A stretch of DNA of 64,000 nt from Halococcus sediminicola. Lineage in GTDB: Archaea > Halobacteriota > Halobacteria > Halobacteriales > Halococcaceae. The stretch covers positions 1-64,000 of the forward strand of contig NZ_BBMP01000022.1 of the NCBI RefSeq assembly GCF_000755245.1. The letters are read 5' to 3'. A program made the translations under genes and the position numbers. Shown in pieces: positions 38,979 through 61,007 of this stretch. The notes beneath the pieces are model-generated. The model did not search any database, was not told where the DNA came from, and was given only the letters and a program-made list of their open reading frames with translations. The number at the start of each line of letters is the position of its first letter. The stretch's first letter is position 1.

Positions 38979-40208
38979 ATGATTTCAAAAATGGGTAAAT
39001 ATGACGACCTCTTCGAGGAGACAGCGCCCGATGACAGTGTCTTTGCTGATAAGGGTGTACTCGACCCGCTCGCCGATCCCGATGCGGTCATCGGGCGCGA
39101 AGAGCAAGAGCATACGTTGGCAACGCTTCTGAACGGCGTAAATGAGGGATACCTCCCAACGACGGTTTCGGTCTATGGGCCGCCCGGAACGGGCAAGACG
39201 CTTACGACCCGGCGGGTCTGTACGGAGTTTGCCGCTCGCACGGAGATGGTGGCCGCCGAGTACGTGAATCTCAAAGAGTGTCGAACCCTATTCAGTGTCG
39301 CCAACGAGATCCACCTCGAACTCACCGGTGAGAAAAAGCAGGCCTACGAGGGTCTCGATGGTGTCTTCGAGGGTATTTGGGCGGCTCTGGAAGACTATCC
39401 CGAGTGGACGGTTCTCATCTTAGACGAGATCGATCACATCAAACACGATTCGAACTACGATCCGAACAACTTTTTCTACCGACTGTTGCGCGGCGAGGGC
39501 AAACTCGAACGGAACATTCGACTTTCAGTGTGGCCCTGCTCGAACGAACTCCTGAACGTCGATCTCCGGCTCGACTCGCGGGTTCGAAGCGCAATGGGTG
39601 GCGAAGAGGTGTTCTTTCCGCCGTACTCCTATCACGACCTCATGAGAATTCTCCCACCACGGATAGAGACAGCATTTCGTGACGGCGCCCTCACCGATGC
39701 GGTATTGACTGAGGGAAGCCGGCTGGCAGCGAACCGCTGGGGCGACGCTCGGAAAGCACTGACCTTGTTTCGACAAGCTGGGGAGACGGCCGACGAACGC
39801 GGGGCTACACGGGTCACCGAATCCGACCTCAAGACCAGTTTAAATACGACCGAGCGGGACGCCGTTCTTGAGAAGCTGGTCTTGCTCCCCCAAAATCACT
39901 TTCTGGTGTTAGTGGCGATCACTGGAACCAAACGGGGGGATGAAATCGTACAACCGATCGAAATGACACAGATCGAGGCGTTTTTGCAGAATGAGCAGGT
40001 ACCTGATGAGCTTCAGTTCGGTGCTCGAGCGATCCGTGAACTCGTGACCGACTTAGACACGATGGGGCTGGTCGAGACATGGATTGAATCTCGCGGACGC
40101 GGCGGGCGAGTAAAGCAAATCGAGACAGCCTTCGACCCCAAGTGGGTACGAGCAGCCTCTTCTCAGTACACGGCGAGTACAGCGGGTGAAGTCAATGAGG
40201 ACGCTTGA
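38979..40208 (+). CDS. orc1: Orc1/Cdc6-family replication initiator
   Basis: AAA+ replication initiator of 409 residues, starting MISKMGKYDDLF (Met5 at 38991 is an alternative). Walker A GPPGTGKT is at 67-74, Walker B LILDEID at 146-152, and a sensor/arginine region SRVRS is at 200-204. The C-terminal winged-helix DNA-binding domain covers about 300-400. Haloarchaea carry several orc1 paralogs, many next to replication origins or on plasmids. This one is in a less GC-rich island beside unknown genes, so it may serve an accessory or integrated replicon. Which origin it binds is unknown. Confidence 0.93.
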   Translation: MISKMGKYDDLFEETAPDDSVFADKGVLDPLADPDAVIGREEQEHTLATLLNGVNEGYLPTTVSVYGPPGTGKTLTTRRVCTEFAARTEMVAAEYVNLKECRTLFSVANEIHLELTGEKKQAYEGLDGVFEGIWAALEDYPEWTVLILDEIDHIKHDSNYDPNNFFYRLLRGEGKLERNIRLSVWPCSNELLNVDLRLDSRVRSAMGGEEVFFPPYSYHDLMRILPPRIETAFRDGALTDAVLTEGSRLAANRWGDARKALTLFRQAGETADERGATRVTESDLKTSLNTTERDAVLEKLVLLPQNHFLVLVAITGTKRGDEIVQPIEMTQIEAFLQNEQVPDELQFGARAIRELVTDLDTMGLVETWIESRGRGGRVKQIETAFDPKWVRAASSQYTASTAGEVNEDA

Positions 40209-40663: not shown

Positions 40664-40930
40664 ATGACTCCCTTGAAAGACGAGGGAACGCCATCCGAAC
40701 GCAAGGTAATCCTTGATACGCTAGCCGGCCGAATCCACGAAATCGACGATCGACTTGATCAGTTAGATCCTGAGCTCGATGACACAGAAGCACAACGATT
40801 ACAGATCAGGTGGACCCGAACACTTGGGTATCTCGCAGGCCAATACCGCAAACTCATGAAAGATACCGATATCGATGAGATGGAAGAGGATATAGAATTA
40901 CTCCAGCAGATATCAAAAGCAAACCAATGA
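40664..40930 (+). CDS. 88-residue helical protein of unknown function
   Basis: A highly charged, helix-forming protein starting MTPLKDEGTPSERKV. The pattern IHEIDDRLDQLDPELDD and the later EMEEDIELLQQIS suggest coiled coil. A good ribosome-binding sequence precedes the ATG. It overlaps the next gene by 4 nt (ATGA), showing that the pair is translated together. I do not recognise the family. Base composition is lower in GC than the chromosome around it, as in the rest of the island. Confidence 0.7.
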   Translation: MTPLKDEGTPSERKVILDTLAGRIHEIDDRLDQLDPELDDTEAQRLQIRWTRTLGYLAGQYRKLMKDTDIDEMEEDIELLQQISKANQ

Positions 40931-41646
40931 CCAAGCGAAGCGTTGAGACTGACTTAGATGACTTAAGCGAGGCCATGCTGGATGATCTAGACGCTAAATC
41001 TCGTGTCGCCCTGTTGTTGAAAGCGAGAGAAGACAACCGCGATAGATGGGAAGAACGGTTACTCGAAACCATTCCGACGACCGTATACCGGGGGAAGGAC
41101 CCGGAATACAAACGTCGAGCACAACTACTACACATGATAGCAAAGACAGTATTCACCAATCTCTACACGACGTTCCTCGAATTTGAACTCGTCAAGAGTC
41201 AGAATACTTCTCACGCTCTTCAAGTACTTCTTACGGCCTCGGATGACGACGCGATCCATCCCAATGTATCCCCGGAAAACGAGATGTCTCCGTCCGAACT
41301 ATTCATCAGCCTCTATATCAACTTTTACGCCTGCAAGCGCTTTGCACGTCAAATCGTCGGAGTAGATCTTGAGACGTGGTTAGCGAGTCGCCCCGCGGGG
41401 CAACAAGTGGTGGCAGTAGTAGAGGAAACCTTAGAAACGGAATCAGAGTATTTTGAAGCGGAATCCCAAGACCTTCCCGAGATCTCGGGTGATAATTTCG
41501 ATCTCTCCAGGGAAGATCTGCCCGAGAAGTTACCGAAGAACCCACTCGACCGATATGCATTGGATCGGTATGACAGTATGAAAGAAACATTCGAAGAGCA
41601 ATTCGAAACGAGTCCGCTGCAGACGGGCCATCTCGGTTTGAAGTAG
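40927..41646 (+). CDS. 239-residue protein of unknown function, coupled to the preceding gene
   Basis: An acidic protein (MTKRSVETDLDDLSEAML) with an N-terminal helical, charged region (about 1-60) and a central, more hydrophobic region (KTVFTNLYTTFLEFELVK, then FISLYINFYACKRFARQIV) that is more likely a buried helical core than a membrane anchor. The C-terminal 80 residues are low-complexity and acidic. No catalytic motif is recognisable. The 4-nt overlap with the upstream gene and their position next to orc1 suggest that the pair forms one functional unit, perhaps for maintenance of an accessory replicon or for a virus-derived function; this is inference. Confidence 0.7.
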   Translation: MTKRSVETDLDDLSEAMLDDLDAKSRVALLLKAREDNRDRWEERLLETIPTTVYRGKDPEYKRRAQLLHMIAKTVFTNLYTTFLEFELVKSQNTSHALQVLLTASDDDAIHPNVSPENEMSPSELFISLYINFYACKRFARQIVGVDLETWLASRPAGQQVVAVVEETLETESEYFEAESQDLPEISGDNFDLSREDLPEKLPKNPLDRYALDRYDSMKETFEEQFETSPLQTGHLGLK

Positions 41647-43769: not shown

Positions 43770-44753
43770 CTACGAAGAACGAACGAGCGGTTCGTACCAC
43801 TCGGAGTTGTCTCGATACCACTCGATGAACTTCCCCACGCCGCTGCGGATGTCCTCGGTCGGTTCGTAGCCGAGCACGTCCGCCGCCTTCGAGACGTCCG
43901 CGTGGGTGTGTTCGGCGTCGCCGGCCTGGCGCTCGCCGTACTCAATGTCGAGGTCGGGGGCGATCGCGTCGCGGATGACCTCCGCGAGCGTTTGGATGTC
44001 CACGTTGTCGGTGCTGCCGATGTTCATGACCTCGCCATCGGCGGCGTCGGTCTCCAAGAGTGTGGCGTTCGCGCGAACGATGTCGTCGATGTAGGTGAAG
44101 TCCCGGGTTTGCGAGCCGTCGCCGTAGACGACGGGCGGTTCGTCGTTCATGCACCGCGAGACGAAGTTCGAGATGGCCATGTTCGGGCGCATACGTGGGC
44201 CGTAGACGGTGAAGTATCGGAGCGCCACAGTAGGAATATCGTAGAGGTCGCCGTAGACACGAACGTAGCTCTCGGCGGCGAGTTTCGAGACGCCGTACGG
44301 ACTCACCGGGGTGGTGGGATGCTCCTCGTCGTAGGGGAGATAAGAGGGTTTGCCGTAGACCGACGACGAACTGGCGAAGACGATACGCTCGATGGACGAA
44401 TCACGGGCGGCATCGAGCACGTTAAGCGTTCCCTCGACGTTGATGTCGTCCACGCGCCGAGGATTTGCGACGCTGGCCCGGACGCCGGCCTGTGCGGCCT
44501 GATGAAAAACGAACTCGGCGTCCGCCACGAGGTCGGCGACGAGTTCGCTATCACGGACGTCACCCTCGACGAGTTCGTAGGTGCCGTCGCCCTCGGTGGC
44601 CGCCTCGCGCGCGACGTCGATGGTGCGGCGCTTGATGTCGGTGTCGTAGAAGGGTTCAAGGCTGTCGAGGACGACGACATCGTGACCATCGCGGACGAAC
44701 GATTCGGCGAGATGGCCGCCGATGAAGCCCGCGCCGCCGGTGACGAGTATCAT
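43770..44753 (-). CDS. NAD-dependent epimerase/dehydratase (GalE/GAE type)
   Basis: Extended SDR enzyme acting on a nucleotide sugar, 327 residues. The NAD motif is TGGAGFIGG at the N-terminus and the catalytic pair is YGVSK, with SSSSVYG just before. PNMAISNFVSRCM and DFTYIDDIV are typical of UDP-glucose/UDP-glucuronate 4-epimerases and related dehydratases. It is the left end of the polysaccharide locus. Its product would feed the glycosyltransferases; which sugar is unknown. Confidence 0.9.
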   Translation of the reverse strand: MILVTGGAGFIGGHLAESFVRDGHDVVVLDSLEPFYDTDIKRRTIDVAREAATEGDGTYELVEGDVRDSELVADLVADAEFVFHQAAQAGVRASVANPRRVDDINVEGTLNVLDAARDSSIERIVFASSSSVYGKPSYLPYDEEHPTTPVSPYGVSKLAAESYVRVYGDLYDIPTVALRYFTVYGPRMRPNMAISNFVSRCMNDEPPVVYGDGSQTRDFTYIDDIVRANATLLETDAADGEVMNIGSTDNVDIQTLAEVIRDAIAPDLDIEYGERQAGDAEHTHADVSKAADVLGYEPTEDIRSGVGKFIEWYRDNSEWYEPLVRSS

Positions 44754-44854
44754 TTCCTCGAACCAGTCAGACGACCGGCTAAAGCGTACCGAATCTCCGG
44801 CGAGAGCGCTCGCTCATCGAATCGCTTTTGGGCCGTCTGGGACCACCGACGGCA

Positions 44855-45970
44855 ATGCGCATCCTCAGAGTCGCCCAGAAGACCTACCCGGAGGTCGTCG
44901 GCGGCGGCACCTACCACGTCCACGCGATGAGCCGCGATCAGGCCGCGATGGGCCACGATGTAACTGTGCTCACCATCGGCGACGGCCAGCGCCGTGAGGA
45001 ACGGGCCGGCTACACACTCCTTCGGCGGCCAGCGACCACCGAAGCACTCGGCAACAGCATCTCCGCGGGGGTCGCACGATTCCTCCGAAAAGCCGACGAC
45101 TACGACGTGATACACGCCCACTCACACCTCTATTTCTCGACGAATCTCGCGGCGCTCAAACGACGGCTCGATTCGACCCCACTGGCGATCACCAACCACG
45201 GACTCTACTCACAGTCGGCCCCCGAGTGGGTCTTTCGCTGGTATCTCCGCACGCTCGGCCGCGCGACCTTCGACAGCGCTGACGCCGTATTCTGCTATAC
45301 CGAGACCGACGCCGACCGACTCCGCGAGTTCGGCGTCGGAGCACCGATTCAGGTGGTCCCGAATGGCATCGATACTGACCGTTTCTCGCCCGAAGGAGCC
45401 GAAAGCGACCGGGTCACGGGCGATCCCGCGGTGCTGTTCGTCGGCCGACTGGTCGAGGGGAAACGACCGGGTGACGCGCTGGCGGCGATCGAGCGGGTTC
45501 GAGAATCCCATCCCGGGGCGCGGCTTCACTTCGCCGGTCGAGGACCGTTGCGGGCGGATCTCAAACGGCGCGTCGTCGAGCGTGGACTCGGTGACACAGT
45601 AGCGTTCCTCGGCGAGGTTCCCCACGAGGAGATGCCGGGCCTCTATCGTGGCGCGGACCTCTTCGTACTTCCGAGCCGCGCGGAAGGACTCCCGCGAACA
45701 GTATTAGAGGCGCTCTCGACGGGGACGCCGGTCGTGACGAGCGACCTCGCGCAGTTAGGACCGATCGTCGACGGGGCCGGCACCACCGTGCCTGTGGGAG
45801 ATTGGAAGGGATTCGCCGACGCGCTCGACGAACTGGCCTCGGCCCCAGAACGCCGCAGGACGTGCGGCGAGCGCGGGCGCGAGCGGGTGGTCGCCGAACA
45901 CGCATGGAGCGACACGGTCGCACGGACGACGGCCCGACTGGAGGCACTCTGTGGGAACAACCATCGGTGA
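44855..45970 (+). CDS. glycosyltransferase family 4 (GT-B)
   Basis: A 371-residue retaining GT-B enzyme from ATG 44855 (MRILRVAQKTYPEVVGGGTY), which opens with the typical strand and GGG loop. The nucleotide-sugar site shows ADLFVLPSRAEGLPRTVLEAL with the paired glutamates. It is divergent from the epimerase and convergent with the protease-GH26 fusion. Probably adds a sugar to a lipid-linked or protein-linked glycan. Donor unknown. Confidence 0.92.
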   Translation: MRILRVAQKTYPEVVGGGTYHVHAMSRDQAAMGHDVTVLTIGDGQRREERAGYTLLRRPATTEALGNSISAGVARFLRKADDYDVIHAHSHLYFSTNLAALKRRLDSTPLAITNHGLYSQSAPEWVFRWYLRTLGRATFDSADAVFCYTETDADRLREFGVGAPIQVVPNGIDTDRFSPEGAESDRVTGDPAVLFVGRLVEGKRPGDALAAIERVRESHPGARLHFAGRGPLRADLKRRVVERGLGDTVAFLGEVPHEEMPGLYRGADLFVLPSRAEGLPRTVLEALSTGTPVVTSDLAQLGPIVDGAGTTVPVGDWKGFADALDELASAPERRRTCGERGRERVVAEHAWSDTVARTTARLEALCGNNHR

Positions 45971-46031: not shown

Positions 46032-49000
46032 TCAGTCGTCGCTGATCCGCTCAACGGCGGCCGATTCTGTCGCCGTGCCGGCGGCGCTCGCGTACGTATC
46101 GACCGTCGTTCGGTAGGCGCTGTAGGCGTTGGCCTGCCGTCCGTTGTGGGCGACCGTCTCGGTGCCACGCACACCGTTGAAGACCGCCCAGTCGGTCTCT
46201 TTGTCCTCGTTGAACCAACACCACATGTCGACGCCTCGATTTTCGAAGTACGTGATCGCGTCCCGAATCCATTCACCTTTGCGCTGTGGGTCGTGTCCGA
46301 CACCCACCTTCGACGAGGAAGCGAACTCCGCGACACAGACTCGTTTGTCCCCGAAACCGGTGAGCCTGTCGAGCATGTCACCGTAGATGCTGTCGGGCGA
46401 CTGCCAGCTCGACCAGTCTTTGCTGCGACCCCAGTTGTAGCCGTCGAGACTCAACCAGTCGACGTACCGGCTGCCCGGATACAGTTGTTCGGCCGTGTAG
46501 GAGCCGATGTCCTCGGCGTTCACACACCACATCCACTGGAGGTCGTCGCCGACGCTCTGTCGGTCGAATCGGTTGTGGACACGACGCCACATCTCGATGT
46601 AGCTTCGCGGGCTAGAATCGCCAACGGTCGGTGCCCACGGATACCAGTCGCCGTTCATCTCGTGGGCAAATCGGAGATACGCCCGTCGGTCGTTCGATCC
46701 GGCGAGGGCGTCCCGCAATCGGCCCGCCCAGCGGTCGATATATCGGTCGTGCTCGCCGTTCCCAATTCGGACCTCGATGTCGTTCGGCGTGGTGCTGGCG
46801 AGGCTCTCGATGTAGGCATCGTACTCGTTGCGTTCGACGAGCGACTGCGTGTCGACCGAGGCGGTCCGTGCGCCGGGCGTGTACGGCTCCCACGTGATCA
46901 GCGGCGTTCGGCCGGCGTTCCAAATTCGCGGGAGGATTCGGTCGAACAGCCAGTTCATGTGGCCTTCGTCGGGGTTCCACGGCACGAACAGGTTCTGGAC
47001 GGCGTAGGGGGTGTTCTGCCAGCCCTCCATACGGTCGATAGTGTCGAAGTTCGCATCGCTGAGTCCACTGTAAACCCCAATATCCATATTTCCTGTAGTG
47101 CCTGTTCGTTTGCCATTGAGATAGGCGGTCGCCTCACCATCGATGTCGAGATCCGCGAGTTCACCCGAGAACTTGTAGCTGTCCCGACCGCCACGTCCGA
47201 CCTGTCCGGTGGCGGTCGATCCTCGCATCTCGTCGGTGGCGTCGATGGTAGCCCCGTTGGCCCCGGTACGTTTGAGCGTCCCGCTCGTCGAAAACGAGTA
47301 CTCGGCCATGGAGCCAGTCCCCACGATGGTCAGGACGTTGTCGAGGTAGTCGTCGGGGTCGATGCGCTCGCCGTTGAGATAGGCCGTGGCGTCGCCGTCG
47401 ATGTCGAAGACCACGAGGACGCCCGAGAACTTGTAGCTATCGCGGCCACCGTCGCCGACCCGCCCCGTCGCGGTCGACCCCCACTGCTCGTCGCTGGAGT
47501 TGATCGACGCATCGTTAGCACCTGTCGATTTGAGCGTCCCGCTGCTTGCAAGCGTGTACTCCGCCCCGGAGCCACCCCCCTCGATAGTCACGACGTTGTC
47601 GAGGTAGTCGTCGGGATCGATCCGCTCGCCATTGAGATATACAGTAGCGTCGCCGTCGACGTCGAGCACCACGAGCGCGCCCGAAAACTTGTAGCTGTCC
47701 CGGCCGCCACCGCCGACCTGTCCGGTGGCGGTCGACCCCCACTGCTCGTCGTTGGAGTCGATGCTCGCGCCGTTCGCTCCCGTGGAGTTGAGCGTCCCGC
47801 TGCTCGCGAGTGTGTACTCCGCTACAGAACCGCTCCCCTCGATCGTCACGACATTATCGAAATATTCGTCGGGATCGATGCGTTCGCCGTTGAGGTAGGC
47901 AGTAGTATCACCACTCACATCGAGTGCGACGAGTGCACCGGAGAACTTGTAGCTGTCACGACCGCCACCGCCGACCTGCCCCCGCACGGTCGACCCCCAC
48001 TGCTCGTCGTTGGAGTCGATACTCGCGCCGTTGGCTCCCGTTGATTTGAGCGTTCCGCTGCTCGCGAGCGTGTACTCGTCGACCGAGCCACTTCCTTCGA
48101 TTGTCAACACGTTGTCGAGGTAGTCGTCGGGGTCGATCCGCTCGCCGTTGAGGTAGGCGGTCGCGTCGCCGTCGATGTCGAAGGCGACGAGTGCGCCCGA
48201 GAACTTGTAACTATCTGTATCCCCACCGTCGACCCGTCCGGTCGCAGTCGATCCCCAGCGGTCGCTGTCGAAGTCGATTGTGGCGCCGTTCGCTCCGGTA
48301 TATTTGAGCGTCCCGCTCGTTGCGAGCGTGTACTCGTCGACGGATCCATCCCCCTCAATGGTCAGCACGTTGTTCGGATATTCGTCAGGATCGATGCGAT
48401 CGCCATTAAGGGTAGCGATGGCATTCCTTTCGAGATCCAAAGCGACGAGTTCACCCGAAAAATCGTAGTTGTCGCGGTCTCCATCGCTAACCAGTCCAGC
48501 AGCGACCGATTCCCAGCGAGTATCGTTATCGTCAGTTGAGGTCGTTTTGCCGGAACGGCTTCGAAGCCGGCCGGATGCCGAGAGCAGATAGCGTGCTCGC
48601 CTTCCAGTGCCTTCAATTGATACCGTGTTTCCGAGTTCTCCGCCGACAGCGCTCGTATCGACCCGGCCCACTCCCTGTTCGGCGCTCGACAGCCTCACGT
48701 CCACCGCAGTACTCAACAATCGTTCGCGCAGGTCCGTGTTCGAGAGATCCTGTTCCGAAAGCACCAACGCTGCGACCCCCGAAACGACCGGCGCTGCCAT
48801 CGAAGTCCCGGAAAGCGTCTCGTAGCCGTCGTCGGTCCACGTCGAGAGCACGTTCGTCCCCGGTGCGGCGAGATCTATTTCCGGGCCCCGATTGGAATAG
48901 GATGCGAGACTGCCGTCGGGGTCAAGCGCTGAGACGGCTAGGCACTCGTCGTAGGCGGCAGGATAGTCGACCGAACCGCCGTAGTCGTTGCCCGCAGCGG

Positions 49001-49820
49001 CGACGAGCAACACGCCCTGTTCGTGCGCATAGGAAACCGCCGTCTGGAGCGTTTCGGTGAATCCACCGCCGAGCGAGAGGTTGATGACGTCCGCACCGTT
49101 GTCCGCGGCCCACTGGATGCCGTCGGCGACATCGGCGGTGTAGCCCGACCCACTCTTGTCGAGCACGCGGACACCGAGCAGCGTCGCGTTGCTGATGCCG
49201 GCGATACCGATTTCGTTGTCGGTCCCGGCAGCCACGATGCCGGCGACGTGCGTTCCGTGCTGTTCGTCCGCGAGCGAGTCGGGATACGGCTCGTCATCAT
49301 CATCGACGAAGTCACGTCCGCGGCCGTCGGCAGCGGTGGCTTCGAGATCGGGATGGTCGTACTTGATACCCTCGTCGACGACCGCAATCGTTACGTCACC
49401 ATCACCGAACGTGGTGTCCCACGCTGCCGGTGCGTTCACCATCTCGGGGGCGTACTGGTCGCCGAATCGCGGGTCGTTCGGAACGGTGAGGGTCTCGTAG
49501 ATGGCATTCGGTTCGGCGTACTCGACGCCCGGACGGGAGGCGACGGTGCTGGCGACGTTGACCGTCGCGGTCGCCGAAGCACGCTCGGGTAGCTCGGCTC
49601 TGACGTAGCCGAGTGTATCGTTCTTCCCGATGATTCGGGCGTCGGACGGCAACGCGCGCTGGGCCGTCTGCTCCGCGTTCACGGACGAAGCGACACCAAC
49701 GAGGATTTCCTCTCGCCTCCCTCGCTGGGCGGTTGCGGTCTCCGCCGAGCCGGAAAGCACCCCGATCGCCCCCGCAACTTTCAAGAACTCTCGTCTGTCG
49801 AACGATGGCGTATCAGGCAT
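46032..49820 (-). CDS. Tat-exported fusion: subtilisin-type protease, six 86-residue repeats, GH26-type glycoside hydrolase
   Basis: 1262 residues. A Tat signal (FDRREFLKVAG, residues 7-17) is followed by an I9-like propeptide (about 35-115) and a complete S8 domain (about 118-395): Asp149 in VVDEG, His188 in EQHGTH, Asn278 in AAAGN and Ser340 in SGTSMAAP. Six repeats with an exact 86-residue period follow (about 399-906). The C-terminal domain (about 911-1240) has FAHEMNGDWYPWA with the likely acid/base Glu1054 and VAEFASS with the likely nucleophile Glu1165, the hallmarks of GH26 beta-mannanase/lichenase-type enzymes. A TATA box at -27 predicts a leaderless mRNA. The protein is secreted and embedded in a polysaccharide locus; its natural substrate is unknown. 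Confidence 0.9.
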   Translation of the reverse strand: MPDTPSFDRREFLKVAGAIGVLSGSAETATAQRGRREEILVGVASSVNAEQTAQRALPSDARIIGKNDTLGYVRAELPERASATATVNVASTVASRPGVEYAEPNAIYETLTVPNDPRFGDQYAPEMVNAPAAWDTTFGDGDVTIAVVDEGIKYDHPDLEATAADGRGRDFVDDDDEPYPDSLADEQHGTHVAGIVAAGTDNEIGIAGISNATLLGVRVLDKSGSGYTADVADGIQWAADNGADVINLSLGGGFTETLQTAVSYAHEQGVLLVAAAGNDYGGSVDYPAAYDECLAVSALDPDGSLASYSNRGPEIDLAAPGTNVLSTWTDDGYETLSGTSMAAPVVSGVAALVLSEQDLSNTDLRERLLSTAVDVRLSSAEQGVGRVDTSAVGGELGNTVSIEGTGRRARYLLSASGRLRSRSGKTTSTDDNDTRWESVAAGLVSDGDRDNYDFSGELVALDLERNAIATLNGDRIDPDEYPNNVLTIEGDGSVDEYTLATSGTLKYTGANGATIDFDSDRWGSTATGRVDGGDTDSYKFSGALVAFDIDGDATAYLNGERIDPDDYLDNVLTIEGSGSVDEYTLASSGTLKSTGANGASIDSNDEQWGSTVRGQVGGGGRDSYKFSGALVALDVSGDTTAYLNGERIDPDEYFDNVVTIEGSGSVAEYTLASSGTLNSTGANGASIDSNDEQWGSTATGQVGGGGRDSYKFSGALVVLDVDGDATVYLNGERIDPDDYLDNVVTIEGGGSGAEYTLASSGTLKSTGANDASINSSDEQWGSTATGRVGDGGRDSYKFSGVLVVFDIDGDATAYLNGERIDPDDYLDNVLTIVGTGSMAEYSFSTSGTLKRTGANGATIDATDEMRGSTATGQVGRGGRDSYKFSGELADLDIDGEATAYLNGKRTGTTGNMDIGVYSGLSDANFDTIDRMEGWQNTPYAVQNLFVPWNPDEGHMNWLFDRILPRIWNAGRTPLITWEPYTPGARTASVDTQSLVERNEYDAYIESLASTTPNDIEVRIGNGEHDRYIDRWAGRLRDALAGSNDRRAYLRFAHEMNGDWYPWAPTVGDSSPRSYIEMWRRVHNRFDRQSVGDDLQWMWCVNAEDIGSYTAEQLYPGSRYVDWLSLDGYNWGRSKDWSSWQSPDSIYGDMLDRLTGFGDKRVCVAEFASSSKVGVGHDPQRKGEWIRDAITYFENRGVDMWCWFNEDKETDWAVFNGVRGTETVAHNGRQANAYSAYRTTVDTYASAAGTATESAAVERISDD
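47103..48626 (-). repeat. six tandem 258-bp (86-residue) in-frame repeats
   Basis: The motif SGxLVxLDxxGDATAYLNGERIDP starts at residues 455, 541, 627, 713, 799 and 885, and the motif VLTIEGxGS at 485, 571, 657, 743 and 829 with a diverged version at 401. The spacing is 86 residues every time. The middle copies are nearly identical and the outer copies more diverged, as expected from unequal crossing-over. Each unit looks like a small beta-sandwich of the type found attached to many secreted haloarchaeal enzymes. Confidence 0.9.
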
Positions 49821-49971: not shown

Positions 49972-51315
49972 TCAGTCTCGATAGCCGAGGGCCTGAAGTC
50001 GCTCCTCGACACCGGGTTGGGCTTTGATGTCGGGGATAGTGATGTCCGCCGAGGTGCGCTCGATTGCCTCGAAGCGCGCGTCGAGTTGGCGCTCGAACTC
50101 CTCGACCGTGTCCGGATTGGTGTCGGCGACGTCCTCGGTTTCTCCGGGGTCGCTATCGAGATCGTACAGTAGTTTTTGGTCAGTCATGCCATCGTAGAGG
50201 AACTTCCAGCCCTCGGTTCTGAATCCGAAGCGAAGCGCCGATTCGCCACGAACCTGTTTTTCGGTGACGACCGCATCGAACGAGGGCGATTCGTCGTTTC
50301 GGAGCAGCGGAAGTAGTGACTCGCCAACCATGCGGTGTTCCATCTCCTTGGAGAGGGATGCACCGGCGAGGTCGAGTGCTGTTGGGAGGATATCCACACA
50401 GCGAACGAGGTCGTCAATCCGTCGAGGCTGGTCGATGTCCGCTCCATCCGGGAAGGACATTAAGAGCGGGACGTGCGTGAGTTCGTCGTGAGGGAGATTG
50501 CTATGGCCGTAGTCGTCGTGTTCGTAGAACTCATCACCGTGGTCGCCAACGACGACGATGAGCGTGTTGTCGAGATGGCCACGCCAGTCGAGTCGCCCGA
50601 GGAATTTCCCGAGTTCGGCGTCAAAATATTCGACTTCCTTTCGATAGTTCGTTCGTAGTTCTCGATGTTCGGCGTCGGTAATCTCGTGTGGAGAGGTGAC
50701 GGCTGCCTTTCGCCAGAGGCGCTCGGCGCGGAACTTGTTCCGGTAGGTGAACTCGCCGCCTGGCAGATAGGGGCCATGAACGTCCATGTACTGTGTCCAG
50801 AGGAACCACGGTTCCGGCGCTGCCTCGGTCCATGCGTCGAGCCGTTCGTTCGTCTGCGGGCTGGGCATGTAGGGAGTCCGCCGGAGTAACCGAACGAACT
50901 TGTTGGCATATCTGAGGAAGTCATCAGGTGCGTATTCGAGCAGGCCGTCGCTCTCGAACGGCAGGATGTTTTCCTCGAAGGTGTCGAAGCCCTTGTCGAA
51001 GTTCCAGAGCCGCGAAACGTATGGGTTCGAGTGTATTGCCCCGGTAGTGTAACCGTTCCGTTTGAACTGTTCGGCGAACGTCGGCTGGTTCTCCTCGATA
51101 TACCGATGCCCGCCGTATTCGAGCGGGTAGCGACCAGTGAGCATCGCTGTCATTGAGGGGGCAGTACTGATACCCTGTGAATAGCAGTTCTCGAAGACGA
51201 TGCCATCGTCGGCGAGGCGGTCGAGCGTTGGCGTGTCGTACGATTCGTCGCCGAGCACGGCATCGCAGCGCAGCGAATCCACGACCAAGAACAGCACGTT
51301 CGGAGACTGGTTCAT
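49972..51315 (-). CDS. sulfatase/alkaline-phosphatase-superfamily enzyme with threonine at the active site
   Basis: A 447-residue enzyme from the ATG at 51313-51315 (GTG 51321 is an alternative). N-terminal LFLVVDSLRCD carries metal ligand Asp13. QGISTAPSMTAMLTGRYP has Thr51 in the place where sulfatases carry the formylglycine-forming Cys or Ser (C/S-x-P-x-R). Later metal sites are VVVGDHGDEFYEHDDYGH. A threonine nucleophile is typical of phosphoglycerol and phospho-transferases, so transfer or hydrolysis of a phosphoester is as likely as sulfate removal. No signal peptide is seen. It is last of a four-gene minus-strand unit. Confidence 0.85.
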   Translation of the reverse strand: MNQSPNVLFLVVDSLRCDAVLGDESYDTPTLDRLADDGIVFENCYSQGISTAPSMTAMLTGRYPLEYGGHRYIEENQPTFAEQFKRNGYTTGAIHSNPYVSRLWNFDKGFDTFEENILPFESDGLLEYAPDDFLRYANKFVRLLRRTPYMPSPQTNERLDAWTEAAPEPWFLWTQYMDVHGPYLPGGEFTYRNKFRAERLWRKAAVTSPHEITDAEHRELRTNYRKEVEYFDAELGKFLGRLDWRGHLDNTLIVVVGDHGDEFYEHDDYGHSNLPHDELTHVPLLMSFPDGADIDQPRRIDDLVRCVDILPTALDLAGASLSKEMEHRMVGESLLPLLRNDESPSFDAVVTEKQVRGESALRFGFRTEGWKFLYDGMTDQKLLYDLDSDPGETEDVADTNPDTVEEFERQLDARFEAIERTSADITIPDIKAQPGVEERLQALGYRD

Positions 51316-51405
51316 GGGCACTACTCCAAGTCCGTAGTTATAGGACTTGCTGAGTCAAACGAGGTTTCCAAGTAAGTTGTGCGAATGGCTGACCACTCAT
51401 GTGTA

Positions 51406-52727: not shown

Positions 52728-53936
52728 TTATCGAAAGCTAAACTCCACCTGTCGGCTTTCGGTCGACAACTGCGTATACCCAACGAGCAGTGCCCCAAGT
52801 ATCGAAAGCAAACTGAGTCCGAAAATCGTCATTCCTGCGAATAATTCCAAGGTGAGAAATACTGAAAGCAGTAGAAATCCGAACAACGTTTCGCGTTGAA
52901 CGGTTGGAAACCCAATGACAACAACGATGGTAGTGAGGGCGAGATACGCCCCACCACCGAGAACGCCACTTATCAGAAACATACGGAGGTAGCTATTGTG
53001 AGTTGCGTTCACCGAACTTTCCATGTAGTTGTCCAGCACGGCGACATCGCGTCCGGGACCCCATCCGATCACCGGTCGGTCACGTATGGCTTCGTATGCT
53101 GCGGTCCAGAGTGCGCGACGGCCGCTGAGGTCGACGTTTGTAATGGCGCGCGGACCAGGAACGACACCAAACATCATTCCAAAACTGACGACGACGGCGA
53201 GCGCACCGACTGCCACGAGCAGGGCCATCGCGGCCGGACCAAAGAGGCGGTAGACGACATACAATCCAGCGGCAACGACGAGTGCAAGCAGCGCCGCCCG
53301 CCCACCGGCGAGGACCGCACCGAGGGCGTTCAGACCGACCAACCCGGCAGCCAGCGGCGTGTACGAGCGAGTGTATCTCGCCCCAGCGGCGATCGCCCCC
53401 ATTGCAGCGAGACCCGAGAGGTGATTCGGGTTCTTGAACACCGATGTCGGGGTATTTAACACGACGCCGAGCAGTTCGAGGTTCGTGTGCCACGGTGAAA
53501 TCATAACTCCGACAATTCCGTAGCTACCAACCAACACCGTCGGGAGAGCAATCAGGACGAACGCCCCCGCGGTGTAGGCGAGAACATCATGAAAAGTAGC
53601 CCGGTCGACAGTCGCCGGAACGACGAAGAGGTTGATGCCGGTAATCACGGTGAACGCCCCGAGACGAAGCAGGCCCGCTCTGGTCGGGTCGAGCGCCGTC
53701 GTGAGCGCGAACACCGCCCAAATCAACAGCACCATCGGGACAACTGCCCAGTGATAGATAACCGCGAAGCGGTCTGTGACGACGAGCGCGCCGACGAACA
53801 GCACGTACACGGCGAGAACGACGATGTAGCCGATCATGCTTGGTACGAGCGAAGAGAGGGTAAGCGACGCTGCGAGTATGATTAACAACGTCCAAAGAAC
53901 ATTATTGTCAACCGTGTTTTTCGTGTTCAATTCCAT
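52728..53936 (-). CDS. O-antigen ligase/Wzy-type polysaccharide polymerase
   Basis: A 402-residue membrane protein with about 11-12 helices and the O-antigen-ligase (Wzy_C) signature: GRRALWTAAYEAIRDRP, then GWGPGRD and the histidine in NATHNSYLRMFLISGVLG in a long outer loop. These proteins join lipid-linked glycan units to each other or to an acceptor on the outside face of the membrane. Its start overlaps the end of the GT4 gene by 10 nt, which is tight coupling. Confidence 0.88.
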   Translation of the reverse strand: MELNTKNTVDNNVLWTLLIILAASLTLSSLVPSMIGYIVVLAVYVLFVGALVVTDRFAVIYHWAVVPMVLLIWAVFALTTALDPTRAGLLRLGAFTVITGINLFVVPATVDRATFHDVLAYTAGAFVLIALPTVLVGSYGIVGVMISPWHTNLELLGVVLNTPTSVFKNPNHLSGLAAMGAIAAGARYTRSYTPLAAGLVGLNALGAVLAGGRAALLALVVAAGLYVVYRLFGPAAMALLVAVGALAVVVSFGMMFGVVPGPRAITNVDLSGRRALWTAAYEAIRDRPVIGWGPGRDVAVLDNYMESSVNATHNSYLRMFLISGVLGGGAYLALTTIVVVIGFPTVQRETLFGFLLLSVFLTLELFAGMTIFGLSLLSILGALLVGYTQLSTESRQVEFSFR

Positions 53937-55163: not shown

Positions 55164-56084
55164 ATGAACACTCGTACACGGTTGCGCCGGGCGCTCGACA
55201 ATCCGATGCTCTTTCTCCGTCAGATAAACCGACTCTACCACCGACGGTTCGGCCGCCGCGGCCACAACACCGACGGTATCGATATCTTCGCGGAGGACTG
55301 GGACACTCTCTGTATCCTCGACGCCTGTCGGTACGATATGTTCGCGCGCTGTTCGAAACTACCGGGCCAACTCGAACGCCGACAGTCGAGAGGGTCAGCG
55401 ACCACTGAGTTCCTCACAGCGAACCTCGACGGCCGTGACCTCACGGACACCGTGTACGTGACTGCCAACCCACAGCTCTACCAGAATCGGGAGTCGATAG
55501 CCGTCGACTTCCACGACGTGATTCACGTCTGGCGCGAGGAGGGCTGGGACGAGGAATATGGTACCGTGCTCCCTGAGACCGTCACCGAGTACGCGCTGCG
55601 TGCGGCGGAAAAGTATCCGGACAAGCGCCTCGTAGTCCACTACATGCAGCCCCACTACCCGTTCATCGACTCGGAGACCGACTTCGACAAGGGCCACCTC
55701 ACCGGTGCGCGACAGGAGAACGTCTGGAACCAGTTGCTGCTGGGAACGCTCGCCGCCGAGCGCGAGGATGTCTGGCGCATCTACGAGGCGAACCTGGAGC
55801 GCGCGCTGCCACACGTCGAAACACTGCTAAGGAATCTCGAGGGGAAGACGGTCGTCACGGCCGACCACGGCAACATGGTGGGTGAGCGCGCGTTCCCATT
55901 GCCGATCCGCGAGTGGGGCCATCCCCGTGGTATCTACACTCCGGAACTGGTGTCGGTGCCGTGGCTGGTCCACGAATCCGGCCCGCGCCGAGAGATACGG
56001 GCCGACGACGCCGAAGTCCAGTCCGAGCAGGTAACCGATGAGGTAGTCGCCGACCGCCTGCGCCAGCTCGGCTACGCCGAATAA
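55164..56084 (+). CDS. alkaline-phosphatase-superfamily protein (paralog 1)
   Basis: A 306-residue protein, starting MNTRTRLRRALDNPM. The first metal motif is TLCILDACRYD with Asp53; the nucleophile region RGSATTEFL has Thr80, aligned with Thr51 of the sulfatase-like protein. VVHYMQPHYPF and VVTADHGNMVGE complete the metal site. No membrane segment or signal peptide, so presumably cytosolic. It is closely similar in layout to the gene at 60030-61007. Haloarchaea keep such proteins in surface-glycan loci. Substrate unknown, perhaps a phosphorylated or sulfated glycan precursor. Confidence 0.82.
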   Translation: MNTRTRLRRALDNPMLFLRQINRLYHRRFGRRGHNTDGIDIFAEDWDTLCILDACRYDMFARCSKLPGQLERRQSRGSATTEFLTANLDGRDLTDTVYVTANPQLYQNRESIAVDFHDVIHVWREEGWDEEYGTVLPETVTEYALRAAEKYPDKRLVVHYMQPHYPFIDSETDFDKGHLTGARQENVWNQLLLGTLAAEREDVWRIYEANLERALPHVETLLRNLEGKTVVTADHGNMVGERAFPLPIREWGHPRGIYTPELVSVPWLVHESGPRREIRADDAEVQSEQVTDEVVADRLRQLGYAE

Positions 56085-58662: not shown

Positions 58663-59955
58663 TCACGGTATCCGATCATGCTCGGCGACGGATGTATCGC
58701 TTGGTTCGGACGAAGCGAATTGTCGGCAGACGGTTGCCGATCGATTTACGTCCGGCAACTGCATGAATCGGTTTCGCACCGCTTCGCGCTCGGCGGCATA
58801 CTCGTCGTCAGTGAGGACGGCTTCGAGGGACGAACACAGTTCCTCGAAATCGCTGGCGATTGGGCCGGGCGTGACCGTCTCGTAGTCGAGATAGAACCCG
58901 CGCTCCGAGCGATAATCGTCCAGATCGAACGGGTAGAACACGATGGGTTTGTCGAGAAGCAGGTAATCGAAATATACCGAGGAGTAGTCGGTGATCAGTG
59001 CGTCGGTCTCGGGCAGAATCGAGTAGGCGTCCGCCGTCCCCGGTAGCGGCACGAGCCTGTCGAACGCCGTGAAATCGGTGTCTAAACGTTCACTCGGGTG
59101 GAGCTTCACCAGCAAGTAAGCGTCGATTCTTCGGAGGAATTCGTCGAGCATCGAGAGGTCGAGGTGGTCAAGGACGTACTCCTCTGTGGCGGCATGGTAC
59201 GTAGGCAGATAGAGGAGTACGTCGCTTTCTGAAGGGAGCGAAGCGAGCATCTCACGCACGCGCTCGTCGGCCGCGAGACCAGGCACCGCTTCACCGTCCA
59301 CGAGCGCGTCGTTCCGTGGGTAGCCGGTAACGACGACTCGTTCGGGGTCGAACCGGAAAGCCGAGACGAACGGCTCGATCATCGCCTCGCTCGTTACCGT
59401 GAAGTAGCTATACCGGTCCGTGATGGCGCGCTTGCAGCGCTGAAGTAGTCGCCATGGGAGCGAACCGGTTCCGTAACCGTGGTCCCAACCGAGCTGTTTC
59501 AGCGCGACGCCGTGCCAGAGTCCCACGACAGTGGCCCCACCACAGCACCACCTGTTCACGTCCGCGACGCCGTGGCTGACGAACACGAGTTCGGCCCGGA
59601 GATTGAGGTAAGTTCCGCGGGCCGAGTGGGCGTGATAGGCCTCGTAGCCGTGTGAGTCGAGTTCCGCGACCAGTTCGTTGTCCTTTGCGAGCCAGACCGG
59701 CCGCACGTTCGGACACGATTCGAGGACGTGGAGATAGAGGTGTTTCGAGTTGTCGAGGAACGCTTCGCCACCGCGCGCGCCGAACACCCACAGCCGTTCG
59801 TCCCGCGGCCAGACCAGCGAGCAGACGAACAGCACCCCGAAGAAGAGGAACGTTCCGGCGGTTCGAACGTACGAGTGTCCCGCCCGCAACCACAGGAGTA
59901 GTCTCGATAGCCAGCCATTGTCCGCCGACCCGTCAGGACCTCTCGTGAGAGCCAT
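58663..59955 (-). CDS. CDP-glycerol glycerophosphotransferase-family protein (TagB/TagF-like)
   Basis: A 430-residue peripheral-membrane-type transferase of the family that builds polyol-phosphate polymers in bacteria (teichoic acids). AELVFVSHGVADVNRW and GLWHGVALKQLGWD are the family's signature histidine region; the second half has LITDYSSVYFDYLLLDKP and HPSERLDTDF. One or two N-terminal hydrophobic segments could anchor it. In archaea the polymer is not established. It is flanked by AP-superfamily and nucleotidyltransferase genes. Confidence 0.88.
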   Translation of the reverse strand: MALTRGPDGSADNGWLSRLLLWLRAGHSYVRTAGTFLFFGVLFVCSLVWPRDERLWVFGARGGEAFLDNSKHLYLHVLESCPNVRPVWLAKDNELVAELDSHGYEAYHAHSARGTYLNLRAELVFVSHGVADVNRWCCGGATVVGLWHGVALKQLGWDHGYGTGSLPWRLLQRCKRAITDRYSYFTVTSEAMIEPFVSAFRFDPERVVVTGYPRNDALVDGEAVPGLAADERVREMLASLPSESDVLLYLPTYHAATEEYVLDHLDLSMLDEFLRRIDAYLLVKLHPSERLDTDFTAFDRLVPLPGTADAYSILPETDALITDYSSVYFDYLLLDKPIVFYPFDLDDYRSERGFYLDYETVTPGPIASDFEELCSSLEAVLTDDEYAAEREAVRNRFMQLPDVNRSATVCRQFASSEPSDTSVAEHDRIP

Positions 59956-60029: not shown

Positions 60030-61007
60030 ATGGAAACCCCACCGAGGCGCTGGCTCCGCGAGTCGGCTGAAGAGACGTGGCGAGAGTACCAAAAGAACGG
60101 TCTTGCCGGTGCTAGCCACGGATTGACGAACGCGTGGCAGGATTTCTTCGTCCAGATGAACCGCCAGTACGTCCAGCGGCGCGGAAATCCCGGTGATTCG
60201 ATCTACAGCCGCGACTGGGACGTAATGCTCGTCCTCGACGACACGCGCGTCGACATCATGCACGAGGTCGCCGACGAGTACGACTTCATCACAGGAATCG
60301 ATACGTTCCGCTCGCTCGGAAGCAAATCTCCCGACTGGATGGAGCGAAACTTCGACGACGACCACCCGAAGGAGACGGCCCGAACAGCCTACGTGACCGG
60401 CAATCCTCATTCGCGGATGTTCGATGGCTCGGAATTCGCGTTCTTCGATGAGGTCTGGCGGTATGCATGGGACGAGGACCTCGACACCATTCCGGCCCGC
60501 GCACTCACCGACCGTGCGGTTGAGACGTGGCGAGGGCGCAGCGAGGAAATGGACCGGATGGTCGTCCACTACATGCAGCCACACGACCCGTTCGTGCCGG
60601 ACGCGGAACTCGGCACGTACGGCGGCGTCGATTCGTTCGGCCGGGAGGGATTCGGGAACCTTTGGTCACTGACGGGCTATACGGTCCCACGCGAGCGGGT
60701 CTGGCAGGCCTACCGCGACAACCTGCGATACGTCCTCGACGATGTCGCATTGCTGTTGGAGAACCTCGACGCCGAGCGGGTAGTCATCACGGCCGACCAC
60801 GGCCACGCCGCCGGCGAACTCGGTCTGTGGGGCCATCCATCCGATTTACTCCTGCCGTGTGTGCGGGAGGTCCCGTGGGTCGAAGCCAGCGCGGTCGATA
60901 GGGGGACACATGAACCGAGCCTCGAGCGACCCGACGACATCGCGGCGACCGACGCCGACGAGGCGGTGGTCCGCGACCGACTCCGCGACCTCGGCTACGC
61001 CGAATAG
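60030..61007 (+). CDS. alkaline-phosphatase-superfamily protein (paralog 2)
   Basis: A 325-residue paralog of the gene at 55164-56084. The metal motif VMLVLDDTRVD has Asp70; the nucleophile region SLGSKSPDWM has Ser100 in place of Thr80 of paralog 1. VVHYMQPHDPF and VVITADHGHAAGELGLWGHP match. Both proteins end with LRxLGYAE. Soluble, no signal peptide. The pair brackets the nucleotidyltransferase, epimerase and CDP-glycerol transferase genes. Substrate unknown. Confidence 0.82.
   Translation: METPPRRWLRESAEETWREYQKNGLAGASHGLTNAWQDFFVQMNRQYVQRRGNPGDSIYSRDWDVMLVLDDTRVDIMHEVADEYDFITGIDTFRSLGSKSPDWMERNFDDDHPKETARTAYVTGNPHSRMFDGSEFAFFDEVWRYAWDEDLDTIPARALTDRAVETWRGRSEEMDRMVVHYMQPHDPFVPDAELGTYGGVDSFGREGFGNLWSLTGYTVPRERVWQAYRDNLRYVLDDVALLLENLDAERVVITADHGHAAGELGLWGHPSDLLLPCVREVPWVEASAVDRGTHEPSLERPDDIAATDADEAVVRDRLRDLGYAE

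Follow-up and report, generated by a model that had tools for sequence, protein, structure and literature searches.

A stretch of 64,000 nucleotides (nt) of Halococcus sediminicola DNA, hereafter the window (assembly GCF_000755245.1, contig NZ_BBMP01000022.1, positions 1 to 64,000), carries a gene whose product joins a subtilisin-type protease of family S8 to a glycoside hydrolase of family GH26 through six repeats. The open reading frame starts with ATG and runs uninterrupted for 1262 amino acids (aa), with Pfam matches to both enzymes, as the first-pass annotation of the window had proposed. The same succession of a twin-arginine translocation (Tat) signal, S8 domain, repeats and GH26 domain was found in one frame in seven Halococcus genomes: G000, which is the window's own genome, and G001 to G004, G008 and G009 among the other Halococcus genomes (G001 to G009). 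Because this single frame recurs in seven genomes, a frameshift or an assembly artefact was excluded. The Tat motif, SFDRREFLKVAG, was already recognised at first pass; it comes without a lipobox Cys and is kept in the orthologues. It precedes a putative prodomain, for which the PF22148 match at aa 36-105 remained below threshold (19.3 bits against a cutoff of 21, E 0.0016). The individual modules are known in kind; a limited literature search turned up no published description of the S8-repeats-GH26 order, which seems to be a new arrangement within the literature searched, in agreement with the original claim.

The protease part matches Peptidase_S8 (PF00082) over aa 142-385 (E 3e-63). In alignments to AK.1 protease and thermitase, D149, H188, N278 and S340 fall on the catalytic residues, and they are conserved in seven orthologues, which confirms the predicted Asp/His/Ser triad and, with N278 as the oxyanion Asn, places the domain in peptidase family S8. 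Halolysins, including SptA, HlyR4 and Nep, are secreted haloarchaeal S8 proteases. The fused protein resembles them in its Tat export, its prodomain and its S8 core with a full triad, and shows 57% identity to a free halolysin-like paralogue in G000. In contrast, the catalytic domain of the halolysin subgroup is followed by a C-terminal extension of ~120 aa containing two conserved Cys (PMC3158780). This extension is absent here, and six Cys-free repeats and the GH26 domain take its place. The protein thus falls outside that subgroup, and the scheme of a halolysin with a small C-terminal domain, given in the first-pass annotation, does not fit. A tree of S8 domains is weakly consistent with one origin of the fused S8 (support 63/89).

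In the C-terminal part, the best stretch of the Glyco_hydro_26 (PF02156) match covers aa 1048-1129 (E 1.6e-8) and scores 34.7 bits, above the cutoff of 20.2. E1054 (HEMNG) and E1165 (VAEF), both noted at first pass, line up with HEANG and AEFAS in Clostridium thermocellum Lic26A, and the top Foldseek matches are GH26 structures; membership of GH26 is therefore secure. Lic26A, the GH26 module of C. thermocellum 'Endoglucanase H', is a beta-1,3-1,4-glucanase (PDB 2bv9, 2vi0, 2cip). It is the nearest PDB sequence (E 9e-29), the next group, made of other GH26 enzymes including mannanases, starting at 4.5e-6. Foldseek with an AlphaFold2 (AF2) model of the domain likewise returned Lic26A first (E 2.6e-18, TM 0.74 by target), with mannanases at ~1e-9. 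A beta-1,4-mannanase identity was therefore rejected and the label 'beta-mannanase', suggested at first pass, should not be carried over; from the alignments and the modelled fold, a beta-1,3/1,4-glucan would be a better guess for the substrate than mannan. The two proteins also have the DGYNWG and KETDW stretches in common. They differ in that the Halococcus domain, ~28% identical to Lic26A, is archaeal, Tat-exported, fused to S8 and repeats, outside any cellulosome context and of predicted specificity. The non-mannanase placement agrees with a survey in which over 100 haloarchaeal GH26 proteins, showing very little homology to proven mannanases, form a clade that may merit a family of its own (PMC10963439). 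Our domain probably belongs to this 'clade I', being haloarchaeal and very dissimilar to proven mannanases; unlike it, the clade members described are not reported as protease fusions.

The relatives of this GH26 domain are found beside glycan synthases, linkage being defined as a GH26 locus lying no more than 3 kb from a PF13632 GT2 gene. Outside Halococcus, 23 of 28 GH26 loci are linked in this way (22 of 26 genomes, e.g. L090-L101), as are 18/26 of the other Halococcus copies, giving 41 of the 54 loci without S8 and without repeats. There are ~2 PF13632 genes per genome, for a chance linkage of ~0.4% per locus and a binomial probability of 5e-50, a figure which ignores shared ancestry, although the pattern spans many genera. 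The neighbours checked (seven outside Halococcus and one in G000) encode GT2 synthases of ~490-610 aa that are cellulose/chitin-synthase-like. On C22, the contig of the window, both PF13632 genes of G000 adjoin GH26 genes (453976 with 455160, and 611055 with 612286 and 613179). The frame of one G000 copy, GH26b (L019, 1048 aa), is over-extended, its real start being probably near the GH26 part. The Lic26-like GH26 and the processive GT2 form a conserved archaeal synthase-hydrolase pair. In bacterial cellulose systems, the hydrolase BcsZ works beside the synthase BcsA. The archaeal pair is similar in bringing a hydrolase close to a processive GT2 synthase; it differs in the hydrolase family, in that the polymer is predicted only, and in that the S8-fused gene itself is not beside a synthase. 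The linkage appears to be a new observation within the literature searched, and is absent from the passages of PMC10963439 that describe clade I. It points to a self-made glycan, rather than food or weapons, as the substrate of the group.

All nine Halococcus genomes drawn have three to seven GH26 copies, compared with 26/382 other genomes, mostly with one each. S8 is optional among the Halococcus proteins, since G005, G006 and probably G007 (with its repeats broken up into three frames) encode a Tat-repeats-GH26 version without it. No S8-GH26 fusion was found outside Halococcus in 391 Halobacteria genomes, the longest GH26 frame outside the genus having 655 aa and lacking S8; in this haloarchaeal sample, the fusion is confined to Halococcus. 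In the GH26 tree the S8-fused forms make up one clade (99/98), which supports a single origin well; it adjoins the repeat forms that lack S8 (joint clade 100/100), and the nearest paralogue is a synthase-linked Halococcus copy. This distribution bears on a somewhat unlikely alternative, according to which the S8 domain serves the maturation of its own chain only, freeing GH26 or repeats-GH26 by self-cleavage and having no external protein target. It would agree with the full triad and prodomain, with the acidic, Cys-free character of the repeat region and with the reported self-activation of halolysin SptA (PMC6085418). However, G005 and G006 keep Tat-repeats-GH26 without S8, so that maturation of the hydrolase is independent of it there. 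Because the protease-less version exists, the hydrolase does not depend on being released by S8. A maturation role is compatible with the reading favoured below, of which it touches the last step only.

The fused gene lies at one end of a polysaccharide cluster spanning 43.8 kb to 67.2 kb. The gene order is epimerase, GT4, fused gene, sulfatase, membrane protein, Wzy_C, GT4, sulfatase-like, nucleotidyltransferase, UDP-GlcNAc 2-epimerase-like, Glyphos_transf, sulfatase-like, GT2, GT4, pyruvyltransferase, Wzx flippase and sulfatase-like. In the seven genomes the fused gene mostly occupies this same terminal place in a surface-polysaccharide cluster of the Wzx/Wzy type, and in four of them (G001, G002, G003, G009) the sugar epimerase and the GT4 gene are again its neighbours. 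Coordinates are collected in the table.

Features of the fused gene, its cluster and related loci. Positions are those of the window unless prefixed; C22 is the window's contig
Feature	Position	Strand	Basis or remark
Whole gene, 1262 aa	46032..49820	-	Tat signal, prodomain, S8 subtilase, six 86-aa repeats, GH26
Tat signal peptide, aa 1-32 (SFDRREFLKVAG...TATA)	49725..49820	-	Sequence; kept in orthologues
N-terminal prodomain (fervidolysin-type), aa 33-112	49485..49724	-	Weak PF22148 match
S8 subtilase catalytic domain, aa 113-390	48651..49484	-	Pfam; alignment to AK.1 protease/thermitase
S8 catalytic residues	D149 49374-49376; H188 49257-49259; N278 48987-48989; S340 48801-48803	-	
Repeat unit 1 (degenerate), aa 399-484	48369..48626	-	
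Repeat units 2-6, aa 485-910	47091..48368	-	Period 86 aa (258 nt); 90% aa identity with the array of the Tat beta-helix gene
GH26 catalytic domain, aa 911-1240	46101..47090	-	Pfam, Lic26A alignment, Foldseek
GH26 catalytic Glu	acid/base E1054 46659-46661; nucleophile E1165 46326-46328	-	By alignment
NAD-dependent sugar epimerase, conserved flank	43770..44753	-	Pfam; 82-91% identical, syntenic in G001, G002, G003, G009
GT4 glycosyltransferase, conserved flank	44828..45970	+	Pfam; 74-85% identical, syntenic
Sulfatase (PF00884), adjacent gene	49972..51321	-	81-83% identical near fused gene in G001, G003
Wzy_C/O-antigen-ligase-type polymerase	52728..53936	-	Pfam
Sulfatase or sulfatase-like gene	55164-56084		
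Glyphos_transf (TagF/TagB-like) gene	58663..59955	-	Pfam E 7e-70
Sulfatase or sulfatase-like gene	60030-61007		
Sulfatase or sulfatase-like gene	L018:2142-3200		L018:3313 = C22:67313
Tat beta-helix gene with six repeats	C22:67313-70348 (L018:3313-6348)	-	Same strand as fused gene
Orc1/Cdc6 replication-initiator gene	38979-40208		Cdc6_lid E 1.6e-15
Two unknown genes	40664-41646		Next to Orc1/Cdc6 gene
G000 synthase-GH26 pairs	C22:453976-455906; C22:611055-613919 (L019, L020)		

The cluster contains a CDP-glycerol glycerophosphotransferase-like gene (Glyphos_transf), which in an archaeal setting hints at a teichoic-acid-like phosphodiester polymer; the Halococcus wall contains phosphate (PMC4187196). 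Of its four sulfatase or sulfatase-like genes, three are below the Pfam cutoff and may encode other phospho- or sulfo-transferring enzymes. An Orc1/Cdc6 gene, followed by two unknown genes, probably marks a replication origin beside the cluster.

The 43.7-67 kb cluster yielded no gene for sugar transport, oligosaccharide hydrolysis or sugar catabolism, and a scavenging operon was rejected on this ground. It is quite unlikely that the protein digests external glycoproteins and beta-glucans as food, even though halolysins are generally secreted and catabolic islands of mannan-using haloarchaea encode GH26 enzymes exported by Tat (PMC10963439): the same survey assigns the catabolic haloarchaeal GH26 enzymes to a different, mannanase clade, and the genes related to ours adjoin synthases. 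Defence against other cells, also suggested at first pass, was not supported by any toxin, immunity or defence context seen at the locus. An antagonism factor attacking the coats of other cells, with the protease releasing the effector, would recall the haloarchaeal halolysin that can free an antagonistic peptide from its precursor (PMC12893001). However, neither an immunity gene nor a toxin-like part was seen, the position in a biosynthesis locus is stable and close relatives lack the protease, which makes this reading highly improbable.

The six repeats were described at first pass as exact. Their spacing is exact, every interval between the anchors at 449, 535, 621, 707, 793 and 879 being 86 aa with no indels, but the unit sequences are not: units 2-6 are 70-83% identical among themselves at the nt level, and the degenerate unit 1 only 52-55%. 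The module has no Pfam family, and a Pfam BBL5 match was below cutoff and taken as chance. It is found across haloarchaea (96/145 Halobacteria genomes, 46/58 genera), so that repeats specific to Halococcus were rejected, and it is C-terminal in most proteins examined, several of them beta-helix-like. The model of the repeat is all-beta (pLDDT 77.5), and its best PDB match is a weak one to a cellulose-binding domain (E 0.024, TM 0.23-0.33).

A Tat beta-helix gene on the same strand, which closes the cluster on its far side, also encodes six such repeats. Units 2-6 of this gene and of the fused gene pair one to one and in register, with 79-90% nt identity. The same gene pair brackets a 17-20 kb cluster, on one strand, in G009 (L085/L029) and G004 (L088/L025). 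Within the three species tested, the two bracket arrays are 90, 64 and 64% identical at the aa level and share periods of 86, 80 and 85, respectively, compared with 33-46% for unlinked repeats of the same genome (tblastn, three species) and 36-56% for arrays of other species. Judged from their sequences, the bracket arrays represent concerted evolution of two linked genes in three species, caused by recombination of the direct repeats on either side of the cluster, by shared selection for one polymer, or by both. This homogenisation appears to be a new observation within the literature searched. The fused protein shares an 80-86-aa repeat module with haloarchaeal Tat beta-helix proteins, which carry it C-terminally; the module is nearly identical here to that of its neighbour; those proteins differ in having an N-terminal beta-helix-like domain and neither S8 nor GH26. 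In G005, tandem beta-helix-repeat genes lie beside a Wzx flippase (L089:1-6500, G005:C1), away from the GH26 gene of that genome.

The bracket arrays look as if they tracked one local, species-specific polymer, and in several species the fused gene forms one end of a Wzx/Wzy cluster; together, this suggests that the same enzyme might act on the variable polymer of the adjoining cluster, as a depolymerase of capsule or extracellular polysaccharide (EPS) that sets chain length or releases polymer. We regard this as unlikely. The GH26 domain is 71-79% identical between Halococcus species although the cluster interior varies, most interior glycosyltransferases having distant or no counterparts in other genomes, and in G005 and G007 the S8-less version sits elsewhere in the genome. 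Because the GH26 domain is kept while the interior varies, a polymer common to the species is more likely to be the substrate than the variable cluster product.

The chemistry of the Halococcus wall was described around 1979-1982. The envelope is a thick, sulfated heteropolysaccharide with no S-layer, rich in glucose and also containing mannose, galactose, amino sugars and uronic acids, and is organised in three domains partly joined by N-glycyl-glucosaminyl bridges (PMC13321033, PMC4187196). We favour, with moderate confidence, a Tat-exported enzyme tethered to polymer, with which the cell remodels its own surface polysaccharide, i.e. wall and/or matrix; as the relatives of its GH26 part lie beside glycan-building genes, the fused protein most likely trims its own coat. 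A role in surface glycan turnover, suggested at first pass, is thus supported as probable by the conserved active-site residues and the polysaccharide locus. The folded chain would be exported by Tat, the prodomain would be removed and the subtilase would mature by analogy with halolysins. The six beta-rich repeats may then serve as a stalk holding the enzyme in the surface polymer. Synthase linkage, expansion in the genus and the locus suggest that GH26 would act on an internal beta-linkage in a glycan made by the cell itself. This glycan would contain glucose and most probably resemble beta-1,3/1,4-glucan more than mannan. Lastly, the putative action of the subtilase would be to cut an envelope protein, or to trim its own chain so as to free or switch off the hydrolase. 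By descent, the GH26 part may derive from a hydrolase beside a processive GT2 synthase, to which repeats were added first and, in a single Halococcus lineage, the protease afterwards.

Several points weigh against this reading. None of the seven S8-fused genes is linked to PF13632, so the synthase-hydrolase pairing holds for their relatives and not for themselves. The GH26 group is not wall-specific because it is also found in other haloarchaeal genera. The AF2 model of the GH26 domain is of moderate quality (pLDDT 61, pTM 0.66). The repeat fold has no PDB or viral match below 1e-3 and no confident structural relative, and binding or tethering of a surface polymer by the repeats is putative. 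No molecular structure or linkages of the wall are known (PMC4187196). Activity, substrate and protease target are all predicted.

A farther-reading proposal, tentative and in our judgement rather improbable, is that the Halococcus wall, rigid and lacking an S-layer, is built and split by a GT2-synthase/GH26-hydrolase system, for which the fused protein would be a dedicated, two-headed wall hydrolase, cutting glycan and peptide in one chain with a logic like that of bifunctional peptidoglycan hydrolases. Its tethering repeats would exchange sequence with the opposite bracket gene by recombination, bracket genes and cluster together being an exchangeable surface-coat cassette.

As far as our literature search found, no enzyme making, cutting or splitting the Halococcus polysaccharide wall is known, and on S8-GH26 fusions, Halococcus wall genes and haloarchaeal GH26 in EPS it yielded nothing beyond the works cited. 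The genus-conserved S8-repeats-GH26 enzyme and the GT2-GH26 synthase-hydrolase pair of the same genomes are candidates for that wall. The large, unassigned haloarchaeal GH26 group is thereby offered a possible function, and a surface-polysaccharide cluster is seen to be bracketed by two repeat genes, with arrays that stay similar to each other in each species.

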